Shown: piece after piece, positions 10,132 to 53,803 of the stretch
How the letters are laid out: the number at the start of each line of letters is the position of its first letter
Numbering within the stretch: the stretch's first letter is position 1
NCBI RefSeq assembly: GCF_032268605.1
Contig: NZ_CP130318.1
Span: 3,320,001 to 3,384,000 of the forward strand
Length of the DNA: 64,000 bases
Source of the DNA: Paenibacillus aurantius
Lineage (GTDB): Bacteria > Bacillota > Bacilli > Paenibacillales > NBRC-103111
Direction of reading: 5' to 3'
The notes under the pieces: generated by a model
The model's input: only the letters and a program-made list of their open reading frames with translations
What the model was told of the DNA's origin: nothing
Databases searched by the model: none
Translations under genes and position numbers: made by a program

Positions 10132-11085
10132 TTATTCCACCAGTCCCGTACGCTCCACGCCCTCCACAAACCATCGCTGTGAGAAGAGATAAAGGATGAG
10201 AGGAGGCATGACCGCGAGGAACGACTTCGCCATATCGAGGGATTTGGCAAAGAGCTGTCCTTCCTCCGTGCTGAGGTCCGCCGTCGCTTTGGTGAGCGCA
10301 ATGGACAAGGGAACATCCTGCATCTTAAACAAGAACATCATGGGATAATAACTGTCATTCCAGTTCCAAACGAAGGAAAACAGGAACACGACCACAATCG
10401 CCGGCGTGGCGATCGGAAGCATGACCTTGAAGAATACCCGATAGAGGCTTGCCCCGTCGATCTTGGCCGCTTCCTCCAGCTCCTTCGGCAGAATGGAGAA
10501 AAATTGGCGATAGATGATGACGTAGAGGGCTCCCTTCAGTCCGTGACCGAACAAAGCGGGCACGATCATCGGATAGTAGGTATCGACCCAGCCGACTTCC
10601 CGGTACATGAGAATCAGCGGTAGAACCGTTACCTGCGGCGGGATCACAAAGGTGAAGATCAGGCAGGCGAACCAGAACCGCTTGAAGGGGAACGCCACCC
10701 GGGCAAAGGCATAGCCCGCCATGGCGCAGGCCACCAGCTGAAAAAGGGATGCTACGATCGAAAGCCCGAAGCTCACGCTGAAGGAAACCGGATATCGAAG
10801 CAGGGTCCACGCCTTGCTCAGATGCCCCCAGTAAAGCGACCGGGGGATCCAGTTTACGGAAGGATCCAGCAGGTCCTGCAGCCCCTTCACCATGGTCGTC
10901 ACCATATACAGAATCGGATTAAGATACAGATAGGCGGTTTCGATCAGAATGACATACAAGAACAACCGGAAAAGCAGGCCTTTGTCAGCCTCCTTCCCGA
11001 AGAGAATCAGCCGGATTCTTTCTCCTGTTCCCATCAGCATAGGCCGGATGGGTTTATTCCGAAGCGCGTTAATGACCTTCCCCAT
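10132..11085 (-). CDS. Carbohydrate ABC transporter permease, MalG type (CUT1)
   Basis: A 317-aa inner-membrane permease with about six membrane segments. The ATPase-coupling EAA loop reads EEAAKIDGASLYRVFFKVMLP and is followed by TPAIVVVFLFSFVWNWND, typical of MalG/CUT1 proteins. The N-terminal ~45 residues are a longer cytoplasmic lead than usual. Ribosome site GGGGGGAG precedes the ATG. It is 12 nt from the MalF-type gene at 11098-11964, with which it should form a heterodimeric pore. This is the second permease pair in the operon. Confidence 0.93.
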   Translation of the reverse strand: MGKVINALRNKPIRPMLMGTGERIRLILFGKEADKGLLFRLFLYVILIETAYLYLNPILYMVTTMVKGLQDLLDPSVNWIPRSLYWGHLSKAWTLLRYPVSFSVSFGLSIVASLFQLVACAMAGYAFARVAFPFKRFWFACLIFTFVIPPQVTVLPLILMYREVGWVDTYYPMIVPALFGHGLKGALYVIIYRQFFSILPKELEEAAKIDGASLYRVFFKVMLPIATPAIVVVFLFSFVWNWNDSYYPMMFLFKMQDVPLSIALTKATADLSTEEGQLFAKSLDMAKSFLAVMPPLILYLFSQRWFVEGVERTGLVE

Positions 11086-11097
11086 ACTACTCCCCCC

Positions 11098-11964
11098 TTA
11101 CCTAGTTTGAGCCGTGCTGCGGGATGCCTTGGCAAACAGCAGAAAGACGACGCCGAGAAAAAACAGAATGATAAGGAAATAGATCCAGATAAGCGCGCTT
11201 GTCGGCCCGTATTGGGTTGGGTTAACGGCGGCGAGGATCGGATTGCCCGGGAAAGTGAACAGATCCACCACGGTATAGATGGTATTCAGAAGCACGAACG
11301 GCATCATGCCGGGCAGGGTAATCTTCCAGAACATTTCCCAAGGATTGGCCCCGTCGATGCGCGCCGCCTCGTACACCGAAGCCGAGATGGTCTGCCTTCC
11401 GGCAAGGAAGAGCAGAATTTGAACGCCGGAGTACCATAGAATAAGCACGAAGGAATTCAGGACGCTCAAGATTGGAGTGGCCCAGGAGGCCGGCAAATAC
11501 TGGGCTATGGCAGTCGACAAGGAGAACTGCTCCAGGAAGCCGAGCTGTCCGCGGCCCTGGCTGAGAAACCGGTCGATAACGTTCCCGGAAGAGAAAATAA
11601 CCGGGAGGAAGAACACCGCCCTAAAGAAGCTCCTTCCCCAGAACCGCTGGTTCAGCATGATCGCGATCATGAACGAAAAGATCACGATGATCGGAATCAT
11701 GAACAGAACCTGGCGCAGAAACGGCAGCAGGGAATCATAAAGGGCGCTGCCGTCCTCAAACAGAATGCTGTGATAGTATTTCAGCCCGACGAACGTGTTC
11801 GTGATGCCGGTTCCGGTTATCCGGACGCTGTGAAAGCTCATGAACAAGGAATACACCAGCGGAAAGGACACGAATAAGAGAAATCCGACTATCCAGGGTA
11901 GAATTAGGAAGATACCTTCGTATCTATGCGAGAGCGTGTTCTTCATGCGGATCCATGCGTTCAT
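11098..11964 (-). CDS. Carbohydrate ABC transporter permease, MalF type (CUT1)
   Basis: A 288-aa membrane permease, six predicted membrane segments, first at IFLILPWIVGFLLFVSFPLV. The EAA loop is EAARIDGANPWEMFWKITLPG. Its ATG overlaps the stop codon of the DUF5696 gene (ATGA at 11961-11964), so translation is coupled to that protein rather than to a binding protein. It pairs with the MalG-type gene just downstream. The operon already contains another MalF/MalG pair next to the binding-protein gene; the partner binding protein of this pair is unclear, possibly the lipoprotein encoded at 28977-30317. Confidence 0.92.
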   Translation of the reverse strand: MNAWIRMKNTLSHRYEGIFLILPWIVGFLLFVSFPLVYSLFMSFHSVRITGTGITNTFVGLKYYHSILFEDGSALYDSLLPFLRQVLFMIPIIVIFSFMIAIMLNQRFWGRSFFRAVFFLPVIFSSGNVIDRFLSQGRGQLGFLEQFSLSTAIAQYLPASWATPILSVLNSFVLILWYSGVQILLFLAGRQTISASVYEAARIDGANPWEMFWKITLPGMMPFVLLNTIYTVVDLFTFPGNPILAAVNPTQYGPTSALIWIYFLIILFFLGVVFLLFAKASRSTAQTR

Positions 11965-14222
11965 CCCTTCCCGCCCCCTTCGATCACAATGAAATCCTGA
12001 GCGGGAATTTCCCGTCCCTCCACCGTAACAGGAGTGGTGTTGTAGTTGACGAGAACCCGTTTGCCCTTGGCATAAGCCGTTTCCTTTACATTCACGGCCA
12101 CCGTCCGATGCCCGGTTATGTATTGATTCTGCACATCACCCAGAGTGCTTGCGAAGCGGTTGTATTCCTCCACAATGGTTTTCTCCCACTCCTCATAATT
12201 CAAGCTGTACTGCCAAACCGTGAAGGCTTTCTTCATGGTTTCCGTTTTGGCATTCATCACGAGAAAGGAAGGAGCCGCGCCGTACTCGATGGCCCGCAGG
12301 AAATCCTTGCGGTATTCGTCTCTTGTGTTCCCCCAGTTAAGCGTATAGGGAAGCACGCCGTGAAGGACGATCTGCGCGAAAGGTACCGCTTCATCCATGA
12401 AAAGATCGTAAGAGTAGTCATTGGGCAGGGAACGGACCGCCCCGGTATTCTTCCAGGCATAAGCGTTCCCCCTAAGGAGGGTGACCAGGTCCAGCTGGGA
12501 GCCGGCCTCCTCAACCATGCTGCTTTGGATGGCGGCCGCCTTGTCCCGGTCCGCCCGGTAACGGGGGTTATAGTCGCTGAACAGCGTTTGCCCGATCCCA
12601 TCCAGCTGCAAGCCGTTGACTCCTAGCGCCGCAATCTTGGGGAGGGCTTCTTTCAGCTTGCTCTGGGAAATGAGGGGGCTCACAAGAGTAATCGAGTTGT
12701 CGGTCCGCATATTGCGAAAATCGAGTACGGTTCCCGCCTGGTTCTGCATGCCCTGCTGCTTCGGCTTGAATCCCTTGTTGTCGTTGTTAAGTGTATAGTC
12801 CGCTTCGAGCAGGACGGAATCTCCCTTAGAACGGGCGTAAGCGGCAAAGCTTTTCATCCCCTCGTTCCCTCCGAGACGCCCGTCCGTGGTAGTTCCGAAG
12901 CCGAGGGTGGAAAGCCCTTTGCTTTGCCAGCCCTTATAAGTGACCACCAGCTGGGGAATCCCCTGACCGTGAAGACGGTCTACCAGCTTCTTCGCCTCTT
13001 CGGTCGTCGTGCCGGTAATATAGCGGTTAGTCAGAAAGCCTTTTTCCACGTCACCCCCAACCAGGTCAACGAACAGAGGCAAGGACGAGGATTCGCCCGA
13101 GGGCTGTTTCAACCCTTGCTCCGCCAGGAGATACTCGCGGTACTTGGCCGCCATGCCCGCATAATCGCTTTGGCTTCCCGGAAGCACGTAATACCGGACG
13201 CTCCGGTCCCCGTCAAAGCGAATTTTGCTGTAGGTTTGAAAGCCTTGTTTCTGATCCTGGCTGGTCGGCTGAAAATATTGAAGACGGTAGTCATGTTCCA
13301 CGGTGGCCCAGGCGTACCGGCTGTACACGCCCGAGGGCGCTGCAAAGATATAGCCGAATTCCGCTCCTTTGTCCGCCACAGCGAGGACCCCGCTTCCGCC
13401 CGACTTGATCCCATATACCGGCATCGCAATCGTTTGGCGGTTGGTAAAAACGGATTGGAAAGCCATATCGCTACCATAAATGGCTTCGCGGAAGACGGTC
13501 TTGTCATTCGTCAGGTTTTCCTTAAACCGGTAGAGAGCTCCCGAGCCATCCGGCAACAGGAGATATCCCTCTTGTTCCCCCGGCTGGGCCGATCCGAGAA
13601 ACGGATACAGCTTCATATTCAGAAGGGAATCCTTTCCCTCCTCGATGCCCTCATCCAGAACCTTGGTCTCTACATAATCCTCCTTAAGACGCACTTCCAC
13701 CGGCACCATCATCTCAATGGATGGCAGAACGAACGTGAGGGCAAAGCCCCCATCTATTTTCTTCCAATTCGTTATGCCTCCATTTAAAGAAAGCAGGCTG
13801 TTTACTTTCACCTCGGGCTTTGCCGCCTTGCGGGTCAGATCGACCGTTTCGAGTAGGATCGGAGACCGCAGATGACTGCGCCAGGTACCCGTAATGGTCT
13901 CCCGGGCCCACTCTTCCGGATTCGGATACGACCGCAGCAGATGGCCGTCCCTTTTGTCCTCTACCTTAAAATGCCCGGTGTTAGGGTCGGCATAGAGACG
14001 CAGCAGGCTGCTTTCGGCGATGAGCTGAAAATCCGCTTCGTTCGGCAGGTCGCCCTTCGTGCTGACGGCCGGCTTCAAATTGGACGGAATGGATACCTTG
14101 GCCTTTGCCTCCGGAACCAACGCCCCGTTTTGCCCGCCGGAATGCAGCCAGCCATAGAGGATGGCGCCGGCTGTAATCGCGGTGACCCCTGCCCAGGAAA
14201 GAAGCTTTCGTTTGAGGCTCAT
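11961..14222 (-). CDS. DUF5696-type membrane-anchored glycosidase-like protein
   Basis: A 753-aa protein matching the DUF5696 family, which has no established function. An N-terminal single anchor (SWAGVTAITAGAILYGWLHS) leads to a large outside portion. Residues ~60-390 are beta-rich; residues ~395-690 show a TIM-barrel-like alternation with acidic strand ends in LLEADYTLN, GVNGLQLDGIGQ and LNWGNTRDEYRKDF, resembling catalytic sites of alpha-glycosidases. Start at 14222 is preferred to a further upstream ATG at 14297: AGGAGGTG sits 7 nt before it and it overlaps the YIP1 gene's stop as ATGA. The gene sits between the YIP1 gene and a permease, so I infer a role at the membrane, processing or guiding captured glycan to the pore. 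Enzyme activity is unproven. Confidence 0.8.
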   Translation of the reverse strand: MSLKRKLLSWAGVTAITAGAILYGWLHSGGQNGALVPEAKAKVSIPSNLKPAVSTKGDLPNEADFQLIAESSLLRLYADPNTGHFKVEDKRDGHLLRSYPNPEEWARETITGTWRSHLRSPILLETVDLTRKAAKPEVKVNSLLSLNGGITNWKKIDGGFALTFVLPSIEMMVPVEVRLKEDYVETKVLDEGIEEGKDSLLNMKLYPFLGSAQPGEQEGYLLLPDGSGALYRFKENLTNDKTVFREAIYGSDMAFQSVFTNRQTIAMPVYGIKSGGSGVLAVADKGAEFGYIFAAPSGVYSRYAWATVEHDYRLQYFQPTSQDQKQGFQTYSKIRFDGDRSVRYYVLPGSQSDYAGMAAKYREYLLAEQGLKQPSGESSSLPLFVDLVGGDVEKGFLTNRYITGTTTEEAKKLVDRLHGQGIPQLVVTYKGWQSKGLSTLGFGTTTDGRLGGNEGMKSFAAYARSKGDSVLLEADYTLNNDNKGFKPKQQGMQNQAGTVLDFRNMRTDNSITLVSPLISQSKLKEALPKIAALGVNGLQLDGIGQTLFSDYNPRYRADRDKAAAIQSSMVEEAGSQLDLVTLLRGNAYAWKNTGAVRSLPNDYSYDLFMDEAVPFAQIVLHGVLPYTLNWGNTRDEYRKDFLRAIEYGAAPSFLVMNAKTETMKKAFTVWQYSLNYEEWEKTIVEEYNRFASTLGDVQNQYITGHRTVAVNVKETAYAKGKRVLVNYNTTPVTVEGREIPAQDFIVIEGGGKG

Positions 14223-16360
14223 CGGACGGACACCTCCTGAAGAATGGAATAGAGGAAGTTTCGGAGCTCCGCCGATAGCCCAAACACGATAAAACACAAA
14301 ACTCCCAGTATGATCATGGTTCCGACGGTAAACAGCAGGTTAACAGCCGTCTCGCCCACACTGTAATTCTGCACGGACTGAACCTGCCAAATAAGAAGCA
14401 GTACGACCCATACGACCATGCCGCTGTGAAGAAAGTTAAAAATGGATGCTTCACTGAGGGTCATGCCGTTCGACAGGAAGGTAAGCGGGAGCCCCACTGC
14501 AATCAAGGGGGTGAGGGCATAGGCGCTGCCGACGAAGACGTCGACGAACCGGCCTTCCCCCCGCCGAATGGAGCTGACCAAATAATTCGAAACAATCCAA
14601 GCCACCCACACCAGAAAAAATTGCAGGAAAATGGTTGCCGCTCCAGCCGGTCTAATGGCTTCCGCATTGAAGGTAAAGCTGGTTTGGGTTCGGGACACGG
14701 CATAGGAGAGATAGGCTAGTACCAGAATAATGACGGCACTCGCGACGCTTCCCTTGCTCTCGTAACGGAGCGCAGTAAATCCGTCGACCGGATGCCTCAG
14801 AATGTACAGCGCATGCCTCAGCTGGGCCGCCAAAGGCCAGCGCCTTTGGAGAAAACGGGGTGTTCCCCAACTTAACCGGTAACGCTTGGCGATAGCCCGG
14901 AACACGAGATAGAGCAAGCCAAGTCCTAGCACGATGTTCATGAACAACCCAAACCGTTCTTGAAACCAGCCCAGCCGGATTTGCCAGAAGGAGTTGGAAT
15001 ATCCGTCCTGCAGGCCCGCGTCATAATAGAGCCGTTTGGCCTCCGCATAATCTCCCCGTCCATAGGCTGCCTGGGCGAGCCCCAGCATGGCGGGGGTATA
15101 GTAGGCGTTGAGGTGCAGAACCTCGCGCCACAGCGCTTCGGCTTCTTTGTATTTGCCATCCAATGTCAGGTTATTCGCTTTATAGACGAGGGCCCCGAAT
15201 TCCGTCTGGCGGAACATTTGAATGAGGTTCGCGTTGTCATCGAGGACGAACAAATCGTTCGTGGAATTGGTTTCGACGGCCGCGGGGCTCTTCACAATGC
15301 CGAGCTGGGTGGTATTGGGACTCGCGTCGCCCGACCAGAAGAACAGCAGGCTGCCAAACGCATCGTACTGGCTGACCATCTTGGAAACGGAATCAATCAC
15401 CGTGAAATTCCCGTTGCCGTCCACGGCAATATCCTTCAGACTTCCCTTCTCCTCCACCCTGCGGAAGCGGACCTCTCCGAAGGAATCGTTTCCCCCGCCG
15501 ACCGAGCTGTCCGTCCCGAGAAAATTCTTCCCGGCGTTGTTTAATTTCTTCACCTGGCCGCTGGTAAGGTTTTCTCCGTAGGAAACCGTATAGAGGAAGC
15601 CCCGGCTGTCGATATCGACGTTGTTGATGGCAGGAGGAAGCTTGCTGGGCTGCTTCTCATACATCTCTCTTGTGTAGATCATTCTCTTCAGGGAATCCAG
15701 AACGGTAAACGGCGCCTCATTGGCGGCGAAGAACCGGACGAATTTGCCGTCCGGATCGAGCTGCATCAGCCCGTTGTAGCTCCCAAGCGAGTTCACGAAC
15801 AGAAAACCCCGCTTGTCGACGGCGACCTTGATCGGCTCGAAACGGTAGGTTTCCGGAATAAACCGGGATTTCGGCAGCTTGAATTCCTTCAGCAGTTTGC
15901 CGTGCGTGTCGAGCTTGACGACCCTGGCATTTCCTGTATCCGCCACGTAAAGGTTGTCCTGCCCGTCGACAAAGAGGCCCTGAGGCTTGTTAAGCGGAGT
16001 TCCAGCCGCCGTGATCACCCGGTCGAAATTTCCTCCGCGGTCAAACATGACGATGCGGTTGTTCCCCGTGTCCGCCACGTAGATACGGTCCTGGGCATCC
16101 AGGAATAGATCGCCGGGCTGTTGAAGAGGCGAACGGACAGTCTTTCCCGGGTTTTTGGGATCGGGAATAAAAATATCCTGACCCAGCACACGCTCGGGGG
16201 CATAAGCAGCCTGCGTCCAAACAAGCCCTCCGGATTTGTTTCGGTAGTTCGTCGAGTAAGGATAATCGGCGTAAGCCTCCTCTGGAACGCTTCCGACCAC
16301 AAGAAGGACCGAAAGCAGGCTCCACAGAAGACGAACAAATAAGGTTCTCGCCGGCTTCAT
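14219..16360 (-). CDS. NHL-repeat, TPR and YIP1-domain membrane protein
   Basis: A 713-aa multidomain protein. A signal peptide (VRLLWSLLSVLLVVGSVPEEAYA) is followed by NHL beta-propeller repeats (DLFLDAQDRIYVADTGNNRIVMF, LFVDGQDNLYVADTGNARVV) to about residue 385. A TPR-like pair follows (YKANNLTLDGKYKEAEALWREVL, YGRGDYAEAKRLYYDAG), then a membrane segment near 475 and a C-terminal YIP1 module with about five membrane segments. The start at 16360 is set by GGGAGG 7-9 nt upstream. The propeller should face outside. It lies between the two permease pairs in an importer operon, which suggests a structural or gating part of the transporter. No enzyme motif is seen and the function is unknown. 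Confidence 0.85.
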   Translation of the reverse strand: MKPARTLFVRLLWSLLSVLLVVGSVPEEAYADYPYSTNYRNKSGGLVWTQAAYAPERVLGQDIFIPDPKNPGKTVRSPLQQPGDLFLDAQDRIYVADTGNNRIVMFDRGGNFDRVITAAGTPLNKPQGLFVDGQDNLYVADTGNARVVKLDTHGKLLKEFKLPKSRFIPETYRFEPIKVAVDKRGFLFVNSLGSYNGLMQLDPDGKFVRFFAANEAPFTVLDSLKRMIYTREMYEKQPSKLPPAINNVDIDSRGFLYTVSYGENLTSGQVKKLNNAGKNFLGTDSSVGGGNDSFGEVRFRRVEEKGSLKDIAVDGNGNFTVIDSVSKMVSQYDAFGSLLFFWSGDASPNTTQLGIVKSPAAVETNSTNDLFVLDDNANLIQMFRQTEFGALVYKANNLTLDGKYKEAEALWREVLHLNAYYTPAMLGLAQAAYGRGDYAEAKRLYYDAGLQDGYSNSFWQIRLGWFQERFGLFMNIVLGLGLLYLVFRAIAKRYRLSWGTPRFLQRRWPLAAQLRHALYILRHPVDGFTALRYESKGSVASAVIILVLAYLSYAVSRTQTSFTFNAEAIRPAGAATIFLQFFLVWVAWIVSNYLVSSIRRGEGRFVDVFVGSAYALTPLIAVGLPLTFLSNGMTLSEASIFNFLHSGMVVWVVLLLIWQVQSVQNYSVGETAVNLLFTVGTMIILGVLCFIVFGLSAELRNFLYSILQEVSVR

Positions 16361-16379
16361 AGCATTTCCTCCCATGGGA

Positions 16380-17276
16380 TCATTTAATGCCGGAATGGGC
16401 CATCGTGGCGATTACCTTGCTTTGGAAAACAAGGAAGATGACCAGGTTGGGGATGAACATAAACAGAGCCGCCGCCGCTGCCGCCCCCTGCCTCGCCACG
16501 TTATTCGCCATGTTGGCCGTAAGGGACGAAATAAAGAACGGGAAGGTCTTCATCTGTTCATCCTGCATGAACAGCGTGGACGTTTCCGTATTCCCCCATG
16601 CCGACTGAAAGGAAATAATGCCGATCGTGGCTACCGCCGGCAGGATGACCGGAATGACGATCCGCAGGAAGACCGTGAATTCTCGGGCTCCATCCATCCT
16701 CGCCGACTCCAGAAGCTCGTTCGGCAGCTGATCGATGAACTGCTTCATGAGGAAGACGCCTACCGGGACGGCCACCATGGGGAGAATATGCCCCCAGTAT
16801 GTATTCATAATGCCCAGATGGCTAACCACCAGATAACGGGGAATCGAAACCGTCTCCGGCGCAAAGAGCAGCGTCAGAATGATGGAGCCGAACACAAACT
16901 TATGACCGGGAAACTTATGTTTGGACAGCGGATAAGCACAGAGCGCGCTGACGCCGGTTACGACGAAGACGCTCAGAACGGCCACGGCCAAGGAATTAAA
17001 CAGATAGCGCGAAACCGGAATAATGGAATCGGATGTCGTATTGAACAGCTCGATAAAATTCTGGATGGACGGATGCCGCGCGAAGATAGTCGGCGGATAA
17101 ACGAACAATTCCTGGTAGGGCTTGAAGGCATGGTTGAAAATATACACCAGCGGCAGCAGCATAAAGGCGCTGAACAACACAAGCAGGAAGACCACGAGCT
17201 TCTCAAAACGGCTCATCCGGAACAGCTTGGAGCGTTTCCTGAGACCCGCTTTTTGGAGCAAGGCCGGCATTTGCAT
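16380..17276 (-). CDS. Carbohydrate ABC transporter permease, MalG type (CUT1)
   Basis: About 298 aa from the preferred ATG at 17276, just after the stop of the MalF-type gene (TAACATG), with AAGGGGG some 9 nt upstream; an ATG at 17285 overlapping that stop is an alternative, and the longer open frame to 17381 is not used. Six membrane segments begin at LVVFLLVLFSAFMLLPLVYIF. The EAA loop is LESARMDGAREFTVFLRIVIP. It forms the first permease pair with 17278-18261, directly downstream of the large binding protein, so these three probably make one importer. Confidence 0.92.
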   Translation of the reverse strand: MQMPALLQKAGLRKRSKLFRMSRFEKLVVFLLVLFSAFMLLPLVYIFNHAFKPYQELFVYPPTIFARHPSIQNFIELFNTTSDSIIPVSRYLFNSLAVAVLSVFVVTGVSALCAYPLSKHKFPGHKFVFGSIILTLLFAPETVSIPRYLVVSHLGIMNTYWGHILPMVAVPVGVFLMKQFIDQLPNELLESARMDGAREFTVFLRIVIPVILPAVATIGIISFQSAWGNTETSTLFMQDEQMKTFPFFISSLTANMANNVARQGAAAAAALFMFIPNLVIFLVFQSKVIATMAHSGIK

Positions 17277-17277
17277 G

Positions 17278-18261
17278 TTATTCATCCCCCTTCGAGCCGA
17301 ACAAGCCCCAGCAGAATTTGTTGGACAGGTACATGAGAAGCAGCAAGAAAACCGACAAAGCGGAAGCATAGCCGAGCTCAAACCGAATGAAGCCGTAATC
17401 CTCGATTTGGTTCATAATCAGGTGCCCGGCATACTGGGGAGTCGGATTCATGCCCGACAGCTGGGTCCCGATTCCCCCAGCCTTGAATGTCCCCACAATC
17501 GCCATGACGGCCCCGAACAGCATTTGGGGCTTCATGGAGGGAATGGTGACGTACCAGATCTCCTCCAGCCTCGACTTGATGCCGTCCAGCCTCCCCGCCT
17601 CGTACAGCTCGGGATTGACATTGAGAATACCCGCCATCATTGCCAGGAACCCTATCCCCATACTGGACCACAGGGTGACGACAATCATCGAGGTCATCAG
17701 ATGCTCCTTGCTTGTGACCCAAAGCACCGGTTCTTTGATCAGCCCGAGATTAAGCAGAAAGCTGTTCAAGTAGCCTATCCGGTCTCCGCTCAACAGCGGG
17801 AGCCAAACGATCGTCATGGCAATGCCTCCCGTGAGGGACGGGGAGTACATGGCAAGCGCGAACCATTTGCGCCAAGTCCCGGGCAGAATGGAAATCAGCC
17901 AGGCGAGCAGGAAGGAGGCGACATAGCCTCCCGGTCCCGCAATCACTGCAAACTTGAACGTATTCGGCAGCGCATACTTCAGAAACAGCAGATCCTGGGA
18001 TACCATGTACCGGAAGTTCTCCCAGCCTATAAACCGGGGCGCCTCCAAGGAGTTGAAGTACATGAAGCTTAGCAGGAAGGCGCAGATAACCGGAACCATA
18101 ATGAAGACTAGAAAACAGATCATAAAAGGGGCGACGAACAGATAGGACAGCCGGTACTGCCAGATCCGCCGGAGCAGCTCCAGGCCTCGGGTCCGGGTAC
18201 GCCGGAGCAGTCCTTCGTCCGCGTATGCCCTTTGCAGGGCCTGAGTGTTAGTTTTGGACAT
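17278..18261 (-). CDS. Carbohydrate ABC transporter permease, MalF type (CUT1)
   Basis: A 327-aa permease with an unusually long, basic cytoplasmic N-terminus (about 40 residues, rich in Arg) before the first membrane segment YLFVAPFMICFLVFIMVPVI. The EAA loop is YEAGRLDGIKSRLEEIWYVTIP. The gene overlaps the binding-protein gene by 14 nt; AAGGGGTG precedes its ATG. With 16380-17276 it forms the pore expected to serve the large binding protein. Confidence 0.92.
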   Translation of the reverse strand: MSKTNTQALQRAYADEGLLRRTRTRGLELLRRIWQYRLSYLFVAPFMICFLVFIMVPVICAFLLSFMYFNSLEAPRFIGWENFRYMVSQDLLFLKYALPNTFKFAVIAGPGGYVASFLLAWLISILPGTWRKWFALAMYSPSLTGGIAMTIVWLPLLSGDRIGYLNSFLLNLGLIKEPVLWVTSKEHLMTSMIVVTLWSSMGIGFLAMMAGILNVNPELYEAGRLDGIKSRLEEIWYVTIPSMKPQMLFGAVMAIVGTFKAGGIGTQLSGMNPTPQYAGHLIMNQIEDYGFIRFELGYASALSVFLLLLMYLSNKFCWGLFGSKGDE

Positions 18262-21202
18262 ACGGCTTCACCCCTTCCCACGGCTTGTTCCCTTCCGGCA
18301 ATTCCATTGGGCGAAGGGCGCGTCCACCGGAGTCGACATGGCCGAACTCCACCAGCTTGCGCTGCATCTCCCGTTCAATTTCTCCAATAGAAGACTCCAG
18401 TGAGCTCCGGTAATTCATGCCGTCCACCACGGTCCGGTTCCAGGCGTTCTGCAGCTCGCGTTCCAGGAAATAGCCGCCGGGCACATTCGGAATTTCCTTA
18501 AACCAGCGCCATTGCTCCAGAATGCTCTTCAGATCGTCCGGTTTCCACGGCAGATGAACAAAGGCTTCAATATTGGAAGTGTTCCACCGGAAGGATAGGC
18601 CGTTCAGCATTTCCAGATCCGTTCCGTAACGCTCCTGCACTTCGGCCGATGTCCACCATTTCATAAAGGCCCAGCTTTCATCCGGTTTCTTGGTTTGCTT
18701 GAACATAACGGAAGCTTGGAGACCGCCGCCCATCCAGCGGGCCACATCCCCATCCGCCTGCCGGACCCCGGGAATAGGAGCGATTCCCCAGTATCCGTTC
18801 AGCTCGGGAGCCGCCACCATCAGCTGAATGTACATGCTGAAATCAGCTATTCCGATGGGAACGGTTCCGCTGCGGAAGGACTGGTAGAAGCTCGCCACCT
18901 GCTGGTCCACCGCATAGACGTTATAGAGATCGGTCCACTCCTTGAACGCCTGATAGCCCTTTTCCGTCCCGAGGGCGGTGTGGAACCCGTCCTTGCTAAA
19001 ATATTCCGCTCCATTCTGATAGAAGAAAGGCATATGCTGCACGGGCATCATATTCAGGTTATTCTGCTGCAGCACCGGAAGCATATCGTACACATCCTGC
19101 CACGTATTCGGAACCTTCAGCCCGAGCCTGTCCAGAATATCCTTACGGTAATACAGCATCGAGAAGCTCTGGGTCTCGGGTACGCCGTAATAGCCTTTGT
19201 CGTAATAGAAGGGCGTCCAGGAGCCGGGCGCAAACCGTTTATACAGCTCTCCAAAATCCGAGAAAGTCGTAAGGTCATATAGCCCGTTGCGGATGGCATA
19301 ATCAAAAGGAAGCTCCTGCGGCAGGCCCAAGGCGACGTCGGGTGCCATCCCCCCGGCGTTCATGAGCACGAGAAGGTTCGTGTCCGGAAGAAGATTCACT
19401 TTCACTTTGATTCCGGTTTGCGGAGTAAACATCTCATCGCACAACTGCTGCAGAAGATTGACATAATCCCGCCCCCGCAAAACCCATACATTCAGCACAT
19501 CGTCGTCCAAACTGCTGAGCCTCTCCTTCGACTTGAAGGAATACAGGAAATTGATCATTGCCCCCTCTACCCGCTTATAAAAAGGGGCTACCATCCGGGG
19601 AAGAGGTTCCTGTACGGGAACGATGTAGATACGGTCCAACTGGAGCGGCTGGCTTTTGAGCTGCTGGACCAGATCCGCCATTTTCCCCTGCATGGTGACC
19701 AGCCGGTCGGTTTTGTAAGGAATGTCGTTTTCTCTGGCCAGCAGGGCCCGGATGTCCTTCACGGTCGTCAGGATTCCCTGCGTGACGGCGTCGTCTCGTC
19801 CGTTCACGACCGTCAGCCGTTTCTGGATATCCTCAAGCGAATCGGCGATGCTCTTAAAATCGTCCGTAAACCCGGGGAGGTCTTTGGCGATCGTCCAGGT
19901 CCGGTTCGGGTCGGTCGATCCACCGGTAAGGGCTTTCAACTCGTCGGTGAGCCCCATCAGCTTCTTCCCGGTCGATTCCAAGGTTTCGATCATCGGTTTC
20001 ACCGGGGCCTGCGTGGTCCGCATCGAAATCGTGTTCGTTCCCTTTTCCAAGTAAAATTCATACGGTTTGTTTTCCTTGTCCGCCAGCTGGATTCCCTGCC
20101 AGGCGGAATCGTAAGGGAAACGGTAGGCCTGCATCTCCGAGAAAGGAACCTTGCCGTTAATGAGGATGGACCGGAAGGTGGACCGGTTCGAAGAATACGA
20201 CTGCTTGACCCGCATGCCTATTTTGTAGTAACCGCTCTCCGGCACTTCAAAGGTCCAGGCAAGCTGCTGGTTCCCGCTCGCCCACCGTTTGCCGTCCACC
20301 GTGTTAAAGGTAATGCTCCCGCGCTTGGCAGGGGTCGTCCCGATATCGTTATCATAGCGAAGCGACAGGGAGGAATCGCTCTTCCAGTCCGCCTTCTCGG
20401 CCTCCAGGACAATGGGGGCTCCCTTGATGGCCGGCGCTGGAGCCGGCTTGGCTTTGCGAACCTCCGCGTAATCGGAAAGAGGCACCGGCGGGGCCAGAAC
20501 AAAGGACTCCAAGGCAACCGGCTCGGTAGTCGAGAATCGAAGCGTATGGCGTCCCGGGGTCAGGAACCATTGAAGCGGTTCGGCGAAGGCCCCGCCGGCA
20601 TCCCGCAGGGAAGCGGTCATCCAGCCGCTGACGTCCTTGGCGATCGGACGGACTTCATCTCCGTTAGGGTCAAGGGCGGCAGGAAACGGATCCTGCCAGT
20701 GCCGGTCCAGCTGGATCGACCTGGCTTCGAGAAAGTCCGTCTTTCCATCCACCATAACCTGGAGGAGGACCGGTCGCCTGTGTTTATCATCCGTCACGGG
20801 ACGATAGGTCAGATCGATCCCGTAAAGGCCCGCCTCCGCCACGGTCACATCATATTCCACCCACTCCTCCCCTTGCGCCGACCAATCGAGCACGTTGGAA
20901 CGACCGTCGACCTTCCCGACTTGGATGTGGGCATTGTCGGATTTACGGGCATATCCGGAAGCCGACCCGGTTATCCGGCCGGAATGGCCGGCCTTCGCTC
21001 CGCTCTTCTTCCATTCCTCCAGCTTGCTGCTGAAAGATGGTTGGCTATCCTCCACGGACCCCGCAGCCTGACGGGAGCTCGAAGGCTGGGGGTTTGTAGA
21101 CGGGGAGGTCCCATCCGCGAAGCCGTTTGCCGAAGGGATAAGCAAGGTAAGAGCCAAAGTCAGCGGAACTGCAGCTCTTCTAGGGGAAAGCGTCCACCGC
21201 AT
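18248..21202 (-). CDS. Giant extracellular solute-binding protein with two N-terminal carbohydrate-binding-like domains
   Basis: A 984-aa protein, about twice the size of a normal CUT1 binding protein (400-550 aa). Order: signal peptide (VPLTLALTLLIPSANGFA) with no lipobox cysteine; Ser/Pro-rich linker; two beta-sandwich modules at ~80-240 and ~260-400, both with CBM-like phrases (EWVEYDVTVAEAGLYGIDLTY; LAWTFEVPESGYYKIGMRV; GRHTLRFSTTEP; GTNTISMRTTQAP); a helical stretch ~405-560; and a solute-binding domain ~575-975 (GIKVKVNLLPDTN, YGVPETQSFSMLYYRKDIL, WAFMKWWTSAEVQERY). The start at 21202 is set by GGAGGAAG 8 nt upstream; an ATG at 21223 has no site. It sits between the ATPase and permease genes. 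I infer capture of long glycan by the CBM-like parts and delivery by the binding domain. How it stays on the cell without a lipid anchor is not evident. Confidence 0.88.
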   Translation of the reverse strand: MRWTLSPRRAAVPLTLALTLLIPSANGFADGTSPSTNPQPSSSRQAAGSVEDSQPSFSSKLEEWKKSGAKAGHSGRITGSASGYARKSDNAHIQVGKVDGRSNVLDWSAQGEEWVEYDVTVAEAGLYGIDLTYRPVTDDKHRRPVLLQVMVDGKTDFLEARSIQLDRHWQDPFPAALDPNGDEVRPIAKDVSGWMTASLRDAGGAFAEPLQWFLTPGRHTLRFSTTEPVALESFVLAPPVPLSDYAEVRKAKPAPAPAIKGAPIVLEAEKADWKSDSSLSLRYDNDIGTTPAKRGSITFNTVDGKRWASGNQQLAWTFEVPESGYYKIGMRVKQSYSSNRSTFRSILINGKVPFSEMQAYRFPYDSAWQGIQLADKENKPYEFYLEKGTNTISMRTTQAPVKPMIETLESTGKKLMGLTDELKALTGGSTDPNRTWTIAKDLPGFTDDFKSIADSLEDIQKRLTVVNGRDDAVTQGILTTVKDIRALLARENDIPYKTDRLVTMQGKMADLVQQLKSQPLQLDRIYIVPVQEPLPRMVAPFYKRVEGAMINFLYSFKSKERLSSLDDDVLNVWVLRGRDYVNLLQQLCDEMFTPQTGIKVKVNLLPDTNLLVLMNAGGMAPDVALGLPQELPFDYAIRNGLYDLTTFSDFGELYKRFAPGSWTPFYYDKGYYGVPETQSFSMLYYRKDILDRLGLKVPNTWQDVYDMLPVLQQNNLNMMPVQHMPFFYQNGAEYFSKDGFHTALGTEKGYQAFKEWTDLYNVYAVDQQVASFYQSFRSGTVPIGIADFSMYIQLMVAAPELNGYWGIAPIPGVRQADGDVARWMGGGLQASVMFKQTKKPDESWAFMKWWTSAEVQERYGTDLEMLNGLSFRWNTSNIEAFVHLPWKPDDLKSILEQWRWFKEIPNVPGGYFLERELQNAWNRTVVDGMNYRSSLESSIGEIEREMQRKLVEFGHVDSGGRALRPMELPEGNKPWEGVKPYVQN

Positions 21203-21224
21203 GATTTCTTCCTCCGGTTTCATA

Positions 21225-22346
21225 TTAGGTCATCAAGTTCTCGGTCGTGTCCTTGTCAAAGAAGAGAACTTTCTGCATATCGAGCGACAAAGTAAGCTTC
21301 TCTTCCTCCCGGCCGTCAAACCCGGGTATCGTTCGGGCGATCAACGGTTTCCCGGCACCGATGTCTATATACAAATACATGTCGGCCCCCATTAATTCCG
21401 TAATGATCAAGGAACCGGGGATTTGGCTCTTCGGATGAAGGGCGGCTTTCTCCCCTTCGGCAAAGACGTGCTCACATCGGATTCCAAGCACGACCTGCCG
21501 GTTTACTTTGTTATGCTTTCGCAGCTGGGCCGATTGCTTCTCCGGGATACGGAGGTAATAACGCTGGGTATGAAACTCCAGCCCTCCCCCTTCCGCCTCC
21601 AGCACTTTTCCTTCCAGGAAATTAATGGGCGGGGTTCCGATAAAGCCGGCGACAAACATATTGGAGGGGTTGTTGTAGATCTCCCTCGGAGGAGCCGCCT
21701 GCTGGATGACCCCATCCTTCATCACGACGATCCGGTTGCCCATCGTCATGGCCTCCGCCTGATCATGCGTTACATAAACAGTGGTCACACCCAGCTGCTT
21801 ATGCAGCCTTATGATCTCCGTCCGCATCTGGACCCGCAGCTTAGCATCCAGGTTGGACAAGGGCTCGTCCATCAGGAAGACGCTCGGATTGCGGACAATG
21901 GCCCTTCCTAACGCAACCCGTTGACGCTGGCCGCCGGACAGCTGTTTCGGCTTGCGCTCCAGGTAAGGCTCAATTTCCAGAATGCGGGAGGCCCGGCGGA
22001 CGGCAAGCTCGATCTCATGCTTCGGCAGCTTGCGCAAGCGCAGCCCGAACGCGATGTTCTCAAATACGCTCATATTCGGATACAGGGCATAATTCTGAAA
22101 AACCATGGCGATGTCCCGGTCCTTGGGAGGGAGATGGTTGACGAGCCGGTCCCCGATATACAGCTCGCCGGATGTAATTTCCTCCAATCCGGCGATCATG
22201 CGGAGCGTCGTCGATTTGCCGCAGCCGGACGGACCCACCATCACCAGAAATTCCCCATCTTGGATCTCCAGATGAAAGTCTTTGACGGCATACAGCATGT
22301 CCTTGCCGTAACGCTTCTCAATATGATTCAGCAAAATGCGCCCCAT
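21225..22346 (-). CDS. MalK/MsmX-type sugar ABC transporter ATPase
   Basis: A 373-aa ATPase that powers CUT1 importers from the cytoplasmic face. Walker A is GPSGCGKST, the signature is [13 protein letters not shown], Walker B is [12 protein letters not shown] and the switch His follows YVTHDQAEA; a C-terminal TOBE regulatory domain follows from ~245. ATG at 22346 is preferred because GGAGGTG lies 6 nt upstream and the family starts there ([14 protein letters not shown]); the open frame extends to 22508 without support. First gene of the 22-kb operon and the only transporter ATPase in the window, so it, or a shared MsmX elsewhere, probably energises all four importers here. Confidence 0.95.
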
Positions 22347-22537: not shown

Positions 22538-23422
22538 TTAAACGCTGGCGAGATGAAGGTCGTCGCTTTGACTGCTTTGCCGGTATTGACGGGGGGTGAC
22601 GCCGGTCTTTTTGCGGAAGAGGGCGTGAAAGAATTTCATATCCTGGTAGCCGACTTGATTGGCCACCTCCTGGATGGGGATCGAGGTGGATTTCAGCAGC
22701 TCGCAGCACCGCTGGATGCGGACGTTCTGGAGGTACTGCATGAAAGTCACACCCGTCGTTTTCTTGAACAACCGTTGAAAATGGCTCGGGCTCATATACG
22801 AATATTCCGCCACATGCTGAACCGTAATGCTCTTGGCGTATTGACTATGTATGTACTGGACGGCATCCTCCAAATTGTTGGACTGGACCGGAACCAGGCT
22901 TCCGTCGCCTTCATAACGCTGCAGCATCGCGAGGATTTGTACGAGCTGTCCCAGCATAAGGTGTTCATAATGGGGGCATTTCTTCAGGAATTCGCTGTAC
23001 ATGCCGTACATAATCGTCAGAAATTGATCGTACTTGTCCTGAAACTGAAGCCAGGGAGAAGGGCCCTTCACCGGCTCATACAGAAAACGATGCAGCTTGG
23101 AGTCCTCCGTTATGACGCTGGCCAATGTCTCCAGCAGCCGGGGACGAAAAATACAATTGTAAATCACCAGCTGCTTATCCTGCGAGGACGGCCGGAAGAC
23201 ATGCGAGGTCCCGATCGGAATGACGAACAGGTCCCCCCGCTTGGTTGGGATCATCTGATCCTCTATATAGTGATACCCGCTTCCTTCCTCCACATAGCTG
23301 ATTTCAATGAAATCGTGGGTATGCTGGGAAAGCGAAAAGGATTCTTCTTCCCGGTTGATGAAGATATCGAACCCTGTTTCGAAAAATCGATCCCCGCTCA
23401 GCTTCTTGATTCGCCAATTCAT
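22538..23422 (-). CDS. AraC-family transcriptional regulator with cupin sensor domain
   Basis: A 294-aa one-component regulator. Residues ~15-150 form an AraC-type cupin that would bind the inducing sugar (SLSQHTHDFIEISYVEEGSGYHYIEDQ). Residues ~185-285 contain the two helix-turn-helix motifs (ITVQHVAEYSYMSPSHFQRLF; IQEVANQVGYQDMKFFHALF). GAGGTGAG precedes the ATG. It has its own terminator and lies in the middle of region A, between two units that carry the CCTATA operator. It is the best candidate for the activator of the whole locus, switched on by a pectin-derived sugar (inference). Confidence 0.93.
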   Translation of the reverse strand: MNWRIKKLSGDRFFETGFDIFINREEESFSLSQHTHDFIEISYVEEGSGYHYIEDQMIPTKRGDLFVIPIGTSHVFRPSSQDKQLVIYNCIFRPRLLETLASVITEDSKLHRFLYEPVKGPSPWLQFQDKYDQFLTIMYGMYSEFLKKCPHYEHLMLGQLVQILAMLQRYEGDGSLVPVQSNNLEDAVQYIHSQYAKSITVQHVAEYSYMSPSHFQRLFKKTTGVTFMQYLQNVRIQRCCELLKSTSIPIQEVANQVGYQDMKFFHALFRKKTGVTPRQYRQSSQSDDLHLASV

Positions 23423-28976: not shown

Positions 28977-30317
28977 TTATTTTTTGGTTAGCTGTTCCTG
29001 AATCAGCTTGTTGGAGGTTTCCTCCGCTTTCCGCAGGGCGCTGTTGACGTCCATCTTTCCTTTGGCGATTTCCCTGACAACGTCCTCGTCGAAGGCTTTT
29101 TCGATAACCAGCTCGTCATATTCCGTCATCACCCGTCCAGGAGCCGGCTTGCCGTAGAACAGGGCTTTGATGTTTTTGGATTTGGCAAAAGGATAATCGG
29201 TAAAGGCCGCATCCCGTACGGATTTGGTGGTAAGAGGTGTAACCACCCCTCTTTTGGACATGATGGTCTGGTATTCTTCCGAGATCAGATATTTAAGGAC
29301 TTCCATAGCGGCATCCTTGTTCTTTGAGGTCGAGGTGATCCCGGCATAGGTGGCATACGGCTGGGTGTTCAGACCCGGGTACTCCTTAAACTGGGGAACG
29401 GCCGCAATATCCCAGTTCATGGCGAGCGACGTGTCCGCGGAGTTCATCCATCCGGAGGTGTAGACATACATTCCGACTAGGAAATCCTTGTTGAAATCGG
29501 CATGAGCCAGCCATTTCTCGTTGGCCCGCTGCTGTAAGCCGGGATCTCGCGTGAAGTTATAGAAGATTTTCTCAAAAATGAATTTCCAGTTGTCGTTATT
29601 GACCGTTGCCTTGTTCGTGGCGGCATCCACCATATTGGATGAATTCTGGGTAACCCTAATGTAATGCTTAGGTGACATCCAGAGTCCGATATACTGCTTG
29701 CCCCCTTCGTTGCGGGTCAACTGCTTCGAAAGATCGAGGGCCTCGTCCCATGTCATGCCGTCCCACGGATACTTGACGCCGAACCGGTCGAAAATGTCCT
29801 TGTTATAATACATCACGAATTTATTGTCGCTGAGAGGCAGCAGGTAGTGCTTCTTATCGATGGTAACCTGTTCCAGATAAGCCGGCTCAATCGGGCTGAT
29901 ATCCACATTGTGTGTTTTCATTAAAGGGTCCAATTCCTGGGCCATGTTGGCCGGAAGCCAGTCCTCTCTAAGCTCCCCGGCCGAAGAAAGATACATGTCG
30001 AGCGGGGTACCGGAGGCTATGACCTGTTCCATTTTCTGCTGATCGGTCTGGTTGATATAAGTAATAGAGAGCTTAGGAAATTTCTTCTTGATGTACTGGC
30101 CGTACCGGTCCTCAAAATCCTTCTGGCTCGCGAGTCCGAACCAGGTCAAGTTAGCGGTCAGCTCGTCGGGGTTAACCGGAGCTACGGTCCCGGCCGGGGA
30201 CGGATTGGATGCAGCCGAATCCGTCGGTGAGGTCGTTCCTCCCCCCGAGCTGCAAGCGGCCAATAACGACAGGGACATCACAGAGGACAGCATTAATGAA
30301 AGCTTTGGTCGTAACAC
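28977..30317 (-). CDS. Carbohydrate ABC transporter solute-binding lipoprotein (CUT1)
   Basis: A 446-aa extracellular binding protein. The lipobox LAAC (SVMSLSLLAACSSGGG) gives lipid attachment to the membrane. The mature part has typical family phrases: KLSITYINQTDQQKME, NKFVMYYNKDIFDRFGV and AMEVLKYLISEEYQTIM. The start appears to be GTG at 30317, about 12 nt after GGGAGG; the codon before it is ATT. No permease genes are beside it. Its own promoter carries the shared operator site, so it probably works with one of the two permease pairs of the 22-kb operon, most simply 10132-11964. Confidence 0.92.
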   Translation of the reverse strand: MLRPKLSLMLSSVMSLSLLAACSSGGGTTSPTDSAASNPSPAGTVAPVNPDELTANLTWFGLASQKDFEDRYGQYIKKKFPKLSITYINQTDQQKMEQVIASGTPLDMYLSSAGELREDWLPANMAQELDPLMKTHNVDISPIEPAYLEQVTIDKKHYLLPLSDNKFVMYYNKDIFDRFGVKYPWDGMTWDEALDLSKQLTRNEGGKQYIGLWMSPKHYIRVTQNSSNMVDAATNKATVNNDNWKFIFEKIFYNFTRDPGLQQRANEKWLAHADFNKDFLVGMYVYTSGWMNSADTSLAMNWDIAAVPQFKEYPGLNTQPYATYAGITSTSKNKDAAMEVLKYLISEEYQTIMSKRGVVTPLTTKSVRDAAFTDYPFAKSKNIKALFYGKPAPGRVMTEYDELVIEKAFDEDVVREIAKGKMDVNSALRKAEETSNKLIQEQLTKK

Positions 30318-30556: not shown

Positions 30557-32065
30557 CTATTTCCAGGCCGGTCTAAGCGTGGATGCCCTGCCTTCCCATG
30601 CGTCCGCCAGATGCAGAAGGGCCAAGGGAAGAGGATGATCCGTGAGGATGGTCTCCCCGGCTTGAATAGCACCCGAAGGACCTAAACAGGCTTCTGCCAT
30701 TCCTTCCCCCAGGCCGGCTGCCGTCTCCAGGAACCGCCGGTCCTCCGTAGCGCGGTACAAATCCAGCAGGGCATAAAGGACTCGGTAATCGCTGGCAGAC
30801 CCGGAGTCGCGCAGGCTCCGCCCCTCTCCCTGCGGAGAACCAAGCTCCCCAAGCCCTATCCCCTTAGCAATCGAGCGGGCCATTTCCCATAGAAAGGGAT
30901 CCTTCGACAATCGGTAACCGTAGGCATACATCCAGAAATCGTCCCCGCTTAACGGCATGGCCCGGAAGACGGTTCCCGCGGGACCGAAGTAGCCCTTGCG
31001 GTCCAACACAAGCCCCTCCAGAGAGAAGCCGTCGGTCAGCATGGGGACGTAAGAGCAGTCCTTCTCCCGGAATGCCGTTCTCCCCCAGGCCGTCATCTCT
31101 TCACACGCCCAGCGGATGAAACCTTCGCCTTCCTCTCCCAGCATCCCCCCTACGGCCAGCTGGCAGCGCTGAACCGCCGGTCTCGGCTTGAAGAGGGTCC
31201 CTTCATAAACCAGATGCCCTTCCGGGACGAGTGGGGCTATCTGGTACTGGGCCCGGTCCCCGCGTACCGCTGGCCCATCGCACCAGGAGCCGGCGGATTG
31301 GCTGAACTGGTAGCCGCTTATGCCGACGCCCTCTTGTCTGGTCTCCACGTAGCGGGAGGCCAGCCGCTTTGCCCAATCGAGAGGAGCCTGCTCACCGGAC
31401 AGCTTGCTCAGCATAGCCGCTGCATAGTACAGATCGCTTCCGGCGTTGACGAAGGTAAGTCCTTTGCCCCAGAAGAATACATCCCCTCCTTGGTATTCAT
31501 TCTCCCAGATCCGCCCCCGCTCCGTTCCGTAAGGCCCGTGCCGGTTAAAATCGAGGGTTCCCCAATCGAGAATATGGGCATTCCATATCGCTTCGATATA
31601 CCGTTTGGTACCGGCCGGGTCGGCTTTCCACATTAGGCCGTAATCGGGATAATGCATTTTCAATTCATGGACCTTGCTTTTATCCCCGGCAAATTCGAGG
31701 GTTCCGGTCTCCAGATTGTTGGCGGTATGGCCGCCCCAATAGAGAAGCCCTTGTTCATCCGTTTGCCCGCCCAGCAGGTAACGGTAAACTTCTCTCGTCC
31801 GCTCCGCATAGCGGGGAAGCCCTGTTACGTCCGATAAGCCGTCCAGCAGCTTGAACCAATGGGATTGGCTCGCCGGGCTGGAGAGCAGGGCCTTGCGGTT
31901 GACATGATCCGGATCATAAGAGACGGACTGCAGGGACCGGCCATCTAGAGCGTTGACGAACAGTGGCGACTCTCCTTCGGGGTCGGAAGCATGCTTCAGC
32001 AGGAGATCGGCATGCTTCCTTACCCTTTCCCTAAGCCGCGCGGCTGTGCCGCTGCCAGCCATCAT
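30557..32065 (-). CDS. (alpha/alpha)-barrel lyase/hydrolase-like protein, possibly pectate lyase-related
   Basis: A 502-aa intracellular protein, mostly helical with repeated aromatic hairpins. The most distinctive stretch is HELKMHYPDYGLMW, then YIEAIWNAHILDWGTLDFNRHG. It recalls proteins annotated as pectate lyases in plant-material degraders, but I cannot confirm that by comparison. His, Lys and Arg in this stretch would suit uronate binding. GGAGGTGA precedes the ATG pair, and the start overlaps the stop of the 914-codon gene by 4 nt. It is the last gene of the unit that begins at 38.1 kb. Fold guess is moderate, function weak. Confidence 0.6.
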   Translation of the reverse strand: MMAGSGTAARLRERVRKHADLLLKHASDPEGESPLFVNALDGRSLQSVSYDPDHVNRKALLSSPASQSHWFKLLDGLSDVTGLPRYAERTREVYRYLLGGQTDEQGLLYWGGHTANNLETGTLEFAGDKSKVHELKMHYPDYGLMWKADPAGTKRYIEAIWNAHILDWGTLDFNRHGPYGTERGRIWENEYQGGDVFFWGKGLTFVNAGSDLYYAAAMLSKLSGEQAPLDWAKRLASRYVETRQEGVGISGYQFSQSAGSWCDGPAVRGDRAQYQIAPLVPEGHLVYEGTLFKPRPAVQRCQLAVGGMLGEEGEGFIRWACEEMTAWGRTAFREKDCSYVPMLTDGFSLEGLVLDRKGYFGPAGTVFRAMPLSGDDFWMYAYGYRLSKDPFLWEMARSIAKGIGLGELGSPQGEGRSLRDSGSASDYRVLYALLDLYRATEDRRFLETAAGLGEGMAEACLGPSGAIQAGETILTDHPLPLALLHLADAWEGRASTLRPAWK

Positions 32066-38079: not shown

Positions 38080-38116
38080 TGGCCGTCCCTCCACCAAAGA
38101 AATGATCCTTTCTACC

Positions 38117-49769: not shown

Positions 49770-49801
49770 GGTCTCCCCCCTTCCGTTACCCTTTCCATAC
49801 G

Positions 49802-49839: not shown

Positions 49840-49879
49840 TGTGTTTCATGGTCCTTACGCAGAATCGGCCATTCGCCCT

Positions 49880-52861: not shown

Positions 52862-52900
52862 CTGACCGTTTCTCTCCTTGGTGTTTTTTCTTTTCCTATT

Positions 52901-53788: not shown

Positions 53789-53803
53789 GTCCGCTCCTCC
53801 TTT

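Follow-up and report, generated by a model that had tools for sequence, protein, structure and literature searches.

Probable tandem CUT1-type importer cassettes with DUF5696 and NHL-YIP1 proteins in a gene run of Paenibacillus aurantius

We analyzed a run of eight genes (positions 10132-22346, all on the minus strand) in a 64 000-nucleotide stretch of the Paenibacillus aurantius genome (the window: G000:C1:3320001-3384000, in a genome of 6.30 Mb and one contig). The run codes for one ATPase of the ATP-binding cassette (ABC) type, a giant solute-binding protein (SBP), two pairs of permeases (P1F/P1G and P2F/P2G) and, between the pairs, two extra proteins: one with NHL, TPR and YIP1 domains (NHL-YIP1) and one of the DUF5696 family. 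A sequence-only reading had described eight genes with these coordinates and domains and had taken them for a single expanded importer of the CUT1 type. Gene calls and domain scans agree with the description, and the run is confirmed; as for the importer, the linked run and the giant SBP stand, while two importer cassettes in tandem are the better reading of the whole: A (SBP-P1F-P1G) and B (NHL-YIP1-DUF5696-P2F-P2G, in many loci accompanied by a small SBP). With confidence slightly above even, we favor a mechanism in which two CUT1-type cassettes share one ATPase gene and cassette B operates with its two obligate extra proteins as receptor and scaffold.

Autonomy and gene order of the two cassettes

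The cassettes were seen apart in 16 genomes outside the window's class (class according to the assigned kinship label), all selected for DUF5696; partial DUF5696 matches, matches to the YIP1 part and short SBP fragments were left out of the counts. An NHL-YIP1 match stood beside 60 of the 63 full-length DUF5696 genes. A large SBP was present within 14 kb on the same strand at 30 of the 63 (22 upstream, 8 downstream) and absent at 33, with contig ends uncorrected; all 16 genomes contained a large-SBP match somewhere. Opening 23 of the 33 lone DUF5696 loci (20 new ones and L135, L138, L139), we saw no large SBP in any of them, P1-type permeases in one and a small SBP in 19; P2F and P2G were kept in 22, the exception, L199, ending at a contig edge. 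As cassette B without the large SBP keeps P2F and P2G in 22 of 23 loci, NHL-YIP1 and DUF5696 belong to the P2 pair. In L201 cassette B is reordered (DUF5696-P2F-P2G-NHL-YIP1-small SBP).

Large SBPs located apart from full-length DUF5696 were inspected in 10 of 12 loci. SBP-P1F-P1G stood alone in six of the ten; L215 looks the same, but it is a contig of 5 kb, and L212, L213 and L214 are modules that lack DUF5696 or have only part of it, two lying at the end of a contig. Cassettes A and B are autonomous; among the window's relatives, almost every locus has them joined.

These relatives were represented by 59 genomes, the window's own and 58 others. DUF5696 matches were found in 31 genomes (above cut-off in 29), with 28 having none; the host genome itself carries four DUF5696 genes, each with an NHL-YIP1 match next to it. 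Strong matches to the NHL part (E 4e-32 or better) were situated within 5 kb of a DUF5696 match in 83 of 85 cases, and 80 of 82 full-length DUF5696 genes had a strong NHL match within the same distance; this pairing was counted without separate rows for the YIP1 part and without most weak NHL rows. Unpaired loci, two each way, were in draft genomes G033 and G022. Among the matches listed, 11 weak NHL-only ones were checked and none was near DUF5696. The N-terminal part of the SBP gave 84 counted matches (four weak rows were omitted, and four further fragments were merged with the gene they belong to). In 77 of them DUF5696 followed 5.6-6.6 kb downstream in the same orientation, in four it was 25-33 kb downstream, and in three the contig had none. 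Conversely, an SBP was present within 9 kb of 77 of 85 DUF5696 rows. NHL-YIP1 and DUF5696 were together wherever found in the 59 genomes, with permeases present in the mapped loci; the co-occurrence proposed earlier is thus borne out, and orthologs did not usually stand apart from the permeases. Given the linkage of NHL and DUF5696 in both the 59 genomes and the 16 outside the class, and of SBP and DUF5696 in the former, chance adjacency was rejected.

Gene order was mapped, with profiles grown from the window's proteins, in 116 loci chosen for holding DUF5696: the window, 3 others from the same genome, 17 from relatives, 80 named loci (the best 80 of 585), 14 from the phylum's other classes and 1 from the same class. 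The order SBP-P1F-P1G-NHL-YIP1-DUF5696-P2F-P2G, with ATPase optional and NHL and YIP1 fused or split, was present in 103 loci, including six in which a permease call is extra or doubled or the ATPase is displaced (L048, L075, L082, L097, L099, L123). Cassette B precedes A in five loci (L118, L122, L141, L143, L145), is alone in view in five (L049, L053, L061, L135, L138) and is accompanied by other permeases in L139; L056 and L101 are truncated by a contig end. For L049 (G034) and L053 (G027) the SBP was located 25.7 and 28.8 kb upstream, and the scanned part of the gap holds genes of types GH106, GH42 and GH2 (GH, glycoside hydrolase family). An ATPase gene was in view in 77 of the 116 loci; 60 loci had a small SBP no more than 1.8 kb away from the module. 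The window's own small SBP (Table 1) is a possible partner of the P2 pair.

A wider survey, scoring up to three candidates per genome, found full-length DUF5696 in 37 of 398 sampled genomes of the phylum, own genome counted. Candidates from Thermotoga maritima and Lactococcus lactis were rejected, as their matches were below cut-off only; comparable weak matches that were inspected are GH13, DUF6259 or GH129 proteins. The DUF6259 proteins (L150, L151, L153) match DUF5696 weakly in the TIM-barrel region and are perhaps another uncharacterised relative.

In trees of 24 + 24 permease sequences, P1F, P2F, P1G and P2G formed one clean clade each, with support 1.0. All four permeases of the run have the BPD_transp_1 domain (P2F is marginally below cut-off, 26.3 against 26.4 bits, with the EAA coupling loop present). 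The glycine of this loop is kept in 99-100% of sequences (P1F 109/109, P1G 110/110, P2F 115/116, P2G 116/116) and, because of this conservation, both pairs probably couple to an ATPase. The ATPase of the run is of the MalK type with an OB/TOBE regulatory domain (NCBIfam UgpC, 450.8 bits against a cut-off of 432; OB_MalK above cut-off; TOBE_2 19.9 bits against 21). The binding protein of a CUT1 importer, MBP-type, is present in cassette A as the giant SBP; cassette B has just the small SBP nearby, in the 60 loci mentioned.

The module also duplicates as a unit. All 14 modules of genome G040 and all 13 examined modules of G030 were complete (the latter count omits two partial or weak DUF5696 rows, in a genome rated 9% contaminated). 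All 28 pairs of the eight proteins co-diverge, with r of 0.47-0.85 in G040 and 0.83-0.96 in G030, and for each pair 0 of 1000 permutations reached the observed value; this shows no exchange of subunits between module copies. The most diverged proteins among the copies are DUF5696 and YIP1 (mean identity 0.28 in G040, 0.34 in G030), the least diverged P1F and P1G.

In the window, the ATGA couplings and the position of the two extra genes between the permease pairs, both pointed out earlier, are seen directly: 4-nt ATGA overlaps occur at the NHL-YIP1/DUF5696 and DUF5696/P2F junctions, the SBP/P1F and P1F/P1G overlaps are 14 nt and ~8 nt, and the widest intergenic gap is 22 nt (gene starts were assigned mechanically from open reading frames).

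Table 1. Genes of the run and selected neighbors in the window
Feature	Coordinates	Strand	Evidence
ABC ATPase of MalK/UgpC type, sole ATPase of the run	21225..22346	-	ABC_tran 1e-30, OB_MalK, TOBE_2
Giant SBP, 984 aa, cassette A	18248..21202	-	SBP_bac_1
MalF-type permease P1F, cassette A	17278..18261	-	BPD_transp_1; EAA-loop Gly
MalG-type permease P1G, cassette A (start approximate)	16380..17285	-	BPD_transp_1; EAA-loop Gly
NHL propeller + TPR + transmembrane segment + YIP1, 713 aa, cassette B	14219..16360	-	NHL, TPR_19, Yip1; hydropathy
DUF5696 protein, 753 aa, cassette B	11961..14222	-	PF18952 3.9e-174
MalF-type permease P2F, cassette B	11098..11964	-	BPD_transp_1 7e-6; EAA-loop Gly
MalG-type permease P2G, cassette B	10132..11085	-	BPD_transp_1 4e-14; EAA-loop Gly
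AraC-type regulator beside the run, probable local regulator	22538..23422	-	HTH_18, AraC_binding
Small SBP, 446 aa, lipobox-like N terminus, same cluster	28977..30317	-	sequence
GH138-like enzyme, substrate clue	32062..34806	-	PDB BPa0997 E 4.6e-189
BT1020-like enzyme, substrate clue	36262..38118	-	PDB 5mqr residues 19-607, E 2.7e-145; Beta-prop_BT_1020

The extra proteins and the giant binding protein

The AlphaFold2 (AF2) model of the DUF5696 protein (pLDDT 92.3) consists of an N-terminal helix (residues 2-28), a beta-sandwich, a TIM barrel (~340-690) and a C-terminal beta domain; the helix is a probable membrane anchor. The overall fold, compared by Foldseek and VIA-align, is that of GH129: NagBb (5wzn) was matched with Z 32.8 over 572 aa and ZgGH129/DagB (5opq) with Z 31.9 over 584 aa. 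GH129 alignments span 561-586 residues at Z 30.9-32.8 and 16-17% identity; the next structural matches, GH101 among them, have Z of ~21. A profile search agrees (E 8e-16 for NagBb, 5e-10 for the second GH129 match). The Pfam family Glyco_hydro_129 was not matched, PF18952 being the only match at E 0.01.

The profile alignment brings D330 of NagBb, which we take to be a catalytic residue, to residue 438 of the window's protein. Another catalytic residue, D435, as given in the available part of the source (PMC5698469), is just past the aligned stretch; an ungapped count leads to ~543-544 (region ~541-545). In the set of 136 sequences, residue 438 is acidic in 21 of 135, residue 541 in 40 of 130 and residue 542 in 28 of 135, and residue 544 is glycine in 123; thus over the 136 sequences, in an alignment of low identity, no conserved acid was found at the mapped NagBb catalytic positions. 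Conserved residues are D225, D252, D550 and E646, as well as W432, R559 and P614. Loss of catalysis appears likely from these alignments. The sequence-only reading had suggested that the machine possibly trims glycans; the GH129 fold speaks for this and the variation at both mapped catalytic positions against it. As these positions vary, glycan binding by DUF5696 is better supported than trimming. The idea of an ordinary GH129 enzyme was considered and is weakened by the same variation.

The NHL-YIP1 protein starts with a signal-like N terminus; the propeller and TPR come next, then a transmembrane segment (around residue 470) and last the YIP1 domain, which is multi-pass. The NHL and YIP parts are in separate frames in 27 of the 116 loci, and the split NHL part has its own C-terminal transmembrane segment in 23 of the 27.

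The giant binding protein, as it was called in the sequence-only reading, has an MBP-type domain at ~564-958 (SBP_bac_1 at 591-864 of the 991-aa frame). It resembles 5ysb, a beta-1,2-glucooligosaccharide-binding protein (Z 36.3, root mean square deviation 2.8 over 366 aa); the list of PDB matches for the whole SBP was filled by this domain. In the AF2 model (pLDDT 87) the N-terminal half folds into two beta-sandwich domains (~75-400) and a helical part (~402-516) and is probably glycan-binding. The window's protein has a signal-like N terminus and no lipobox; by rough patterns, which were used for lipobox and transmembrane calls alike, a lipobox is present in 9 of 107 large SBPs versus 92 of 112 small SBPs. 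Since giant SBPs of these Gram-positive cells are mostly without a lipobox, they would need another tether; a signal helix that stays uncleaved, or membrane proteins from the module, could serve.

Genomic surroundings and candidate cargo

Positions 5054-38118 of the window look like a Gram-positive rhamnogalacturonan-II locus: around the module there are GH138-like, BT1020-like, two apiosidase-like, GH28, Pectate_lyase_2 and rhamnosidase-type genes, and the pectic context implied earlier is supported. The GH138-like gene codes for a 914-aa protein that had no match in a Pfam scan and was identified through PDB. Rhamnogalacturonan-II breakdown is a known setting for both GH138 and BT1020. Five other genomes (G021, G027, G032, G034, G047) have SBPs with 49% identity or more to the window's, the next SBP being at 44%; each of the five has a GH138 homolog (56-58%) 10-17 kb upstream and on the same strand, like the window. 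With GH138- and BT1020-like neighbors, and with GH138 near five of the five closest SBPs, rhamnogalacturonan-II fragments are the likely cargo of the window's module.

Some observations count against this assignment. G055 has a GH138 homolog on a contig in which we found no module. A second GH138 homolog (54%) of the host genome, G000:C1:3299152-3301860, is ~18 kb outside the window and ~28 kb from the module, on its other side. The five genomes with the closest SBPs gave only weak matches to the BT1020-like gene; as a second rhamnogalacturonan-II marker this gene was of no help, not being conserved near related modules.

Other modules adjoin genes of GH66, GH26, GH30, GH29, GH51-type, GH35, GH43, GH5, GH95, pectate lyase and other families (flank scans covered 74 of 143, 61 of 67 and 39 of 50 candidate flanking proteins, with the 25 commonest families listed). 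Sugar-related neighbors are not the rule everywhere: the 74 downstream flanking proteins included eight luciferase-like monooxygenases and 10 export-type ABC proteins, and on a Paenibacillus cellulosilyticus plasmid (L159) the module is followed by four LLM-class flavin-dependent (luciferase-like) oxidoreductases and two small SBPs, with no carbohydrate-active enzyme in view. The cargo varies among copies and, for those beside non-sugar genes, may be non-glycan; because of such flanks we hold the receptor and scaffold mechanism slightly less firmly.

A complete module is also present on plasmid pNP243 of the rumen bacterium Butyrivibrio fibrisolvens (L160), with GH43 and a two-component system before it and two small SBPs after it. 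Elsewhere in the window, region 46358-60819 has more CUT1-type permease pairs (52901-54688, 57346-59158) and an SBP of 548 aa; a GH78-type rhamnosidase there adjoins a gene pair for a histidine kinase and an AraC-type response regulator. Region 42008-46123 codes for a protein of 1371 aa, whose domains are lamin-tail, metallophosphatase, fn3 and FIMAH.

Mechanism, alternatives and known systems

In the mechanism we favor, cassette A would be a CUT1 importer with a binding protein enlarged in its N-terminal half, which probably binds glycans. The anchored DUF5696 protein, with the GH129 fold and without the GH129 catalytic pair, would keep the end of a glycan, long or branched, close to P2F/P2G. 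The NHL-TPR propeller, anchored in the membrane by YIP1, would scaffold DUF5696 and the SBPs in a physical complex, the giant SBP being mostly without a lipid anchor. ATP hydrolysis would drive transport inward, and cytoplasmic enzymes would complete the glycan breakdown. One could go further and tentatively see in cassette B a distinct class of Gram-positive ABC importers, in which P2F/P2G are permanently equipped with DUF5696 as an anchored dead-glycosidase receptor and with a YIP1 propeller scaffold. The two would dock branched or long glycans (rhamnogalacturonan-II fragments here) at the channel, making the cassette a counterpart of SusCD with up to 13-14 copies per genome, in which receptor, scaffold and permeases co-evolve per ligand; this extension we regard as rather doubtful.

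Several facts sit uneasily with the receptor and scaffold mechanism. There is no ATPase gene in view in 39 of the 116 loci. The small SBP adjoins the module in just 60 loci and is not adjacent in the window. Genes of a co-duplicating operon co-diverge without contact of their products, and co-divergence is no proof of contact. Furthermore, the catalytic positions of DUF5696 were mapped by profile alignment at ~16% identity, and a shift of 6-7 residues could place D550 on D435 of NagBb; D550 is acidic in 129 of 135 sequences and E646 in 133 of 135, making altered catalysis possible. In the available part of its description, ZgGH129/DagB is active with just one of the two NagBb residues conserved (PMC5698469).

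The alternative that fares best, though we think it considerably less probable, builds on these last points: two ordinary CUT1 importers would be accompanied by an active DUF5696 glycosidase with a shifted catalytic pair (e.g. D550/E646) that trims glycans at the membrane, NHL-YIP1 being an accessory. Besides the fold, the conserved acids (D225, D252, D550, E646) and the partly different catalytic residues of the active GH129-like DagB (PMC5698469, available part), such a role would fit the label GH129 given to one such gene in the accessible text on Caldicellulosiruptor bescii (PMC8579813). The absence of a conserved acid at the mapped NagBb positions argues against it, and a strict tie to one permease pair would be unusual for a plain exo-enzyme.

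A single supercomplex, implied by the sequence-only reading, in which both permease pairs, the giant SBP, DUF5696 and NHL-YIP1 feed large glycans through two adjacent channels, seems to us unlikely. The fixed order and spacing, the one ATPase gene and the completeness of 27 of 27 examined paralogous copies in two genomes, with all subunits co-diverging, are what one would expect from it; the cassettes are, however, separate in several genomes outside the class and 25-33 kb apart in four related ones. That NHL-YIP1 and DUF5696 form a surface ligand sensor, reporting the transport state and regulating the operon without moving cargo, is improbable: propeller, TPR and membrane domains would suit sensing and an AraC-type regulator adjoins the operon, but domain scans found no cytoplasmic signaling domain in either protein, and the linkage is to the permeases, with regulators in the flanks varying.

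The receptor and scaffold mechanism can be set beside known systems. The run shares with the CUT1 importers MalEFGK2 and UgpBAEC an MBP-type SBP, MalF/MalG-type permeases with EAA loops and a UgpC-type ATPase; it differs from them in having two permease pairs, an SBP of 984 aa and two obligate extra membrane proteins. DUF5696 has the overall fold of NagBb (GH129) and DagB/ZgGH129 (GH129-like) and, unlike NagBb, is tied to permeases, has a probable N-terminal anchor helix and does not conserve the mapped NagBb catalytic positions. The sequence-only reading had also drawn a comparison with the Sus systems of Bacteroidota. The likeness is in purpose only, that is, in surface capture and uptake of large glycans and in many copies per genome; the module would be ATP-driven and work at a single membrane, and the domain scan of the eight proteins found no family of TonB-dependent outer-membrane channels or SusD.

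One published locus that appears to be an instance of the arrangement is the xylan locus Athe_0174-0185 of C. bescii (Anaerocellum), written xloEFG-X-GH129-axoFGE in the available part of its description (PMC8579813), i.e. SBP-permease-permease-X-GH129-permease-permease-SBP. The locus is described there as encoding two CUT1-family transporters, and this part of the text gives no role for X or GH129; all 25 genes of the XynR regulon are up on xylan, the proximal genes of the locus showing changes among the highest, ~10- to 100-fold (PMC8579813). Going by gene order alone, in the part of the source available, X may be NHL-YIP1 and GH129 may be DUF5696. In L142 (35% GC) the order is identical, and two SBPs and a GH43 gene come after it (SBP-P1F-P1G-NHL+YIP-DUF5696-P2F-P2G-SBP-SBP-GH43). 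Our search of the available literature found no paper naming DUF5696 and no described role for NHL-YIP1 or DUF5696 proteins, in line with the earlier remark that the roles of the two are undescribed; public annotation of the module in P. cellulosilyticus and B. fibrisolvens has generic names only. The arrangement is real and conserved and, apparently, undescribed as a unit.

CUT1 importers of Gram-positive degraders are usually drawn as one SBP and two permeases. What we observed is a widespread variant with two obligate extra proteins, present in up to 13-14 copies per genome. The receptor and scaffold mechanism would give DUF5696 and a bacterial YIP1 family a function, and would explain how a single-membrane cell could keep very large fragments at its surface. 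The variant would also be a marker by which to recognize uptake loci in Paenibacillus, Cohnella, Butyrivibrio and their relatives. Judging from the rhamnogalacturonan-II context, there may be a Gram-positive route for this very complex plant glycan.

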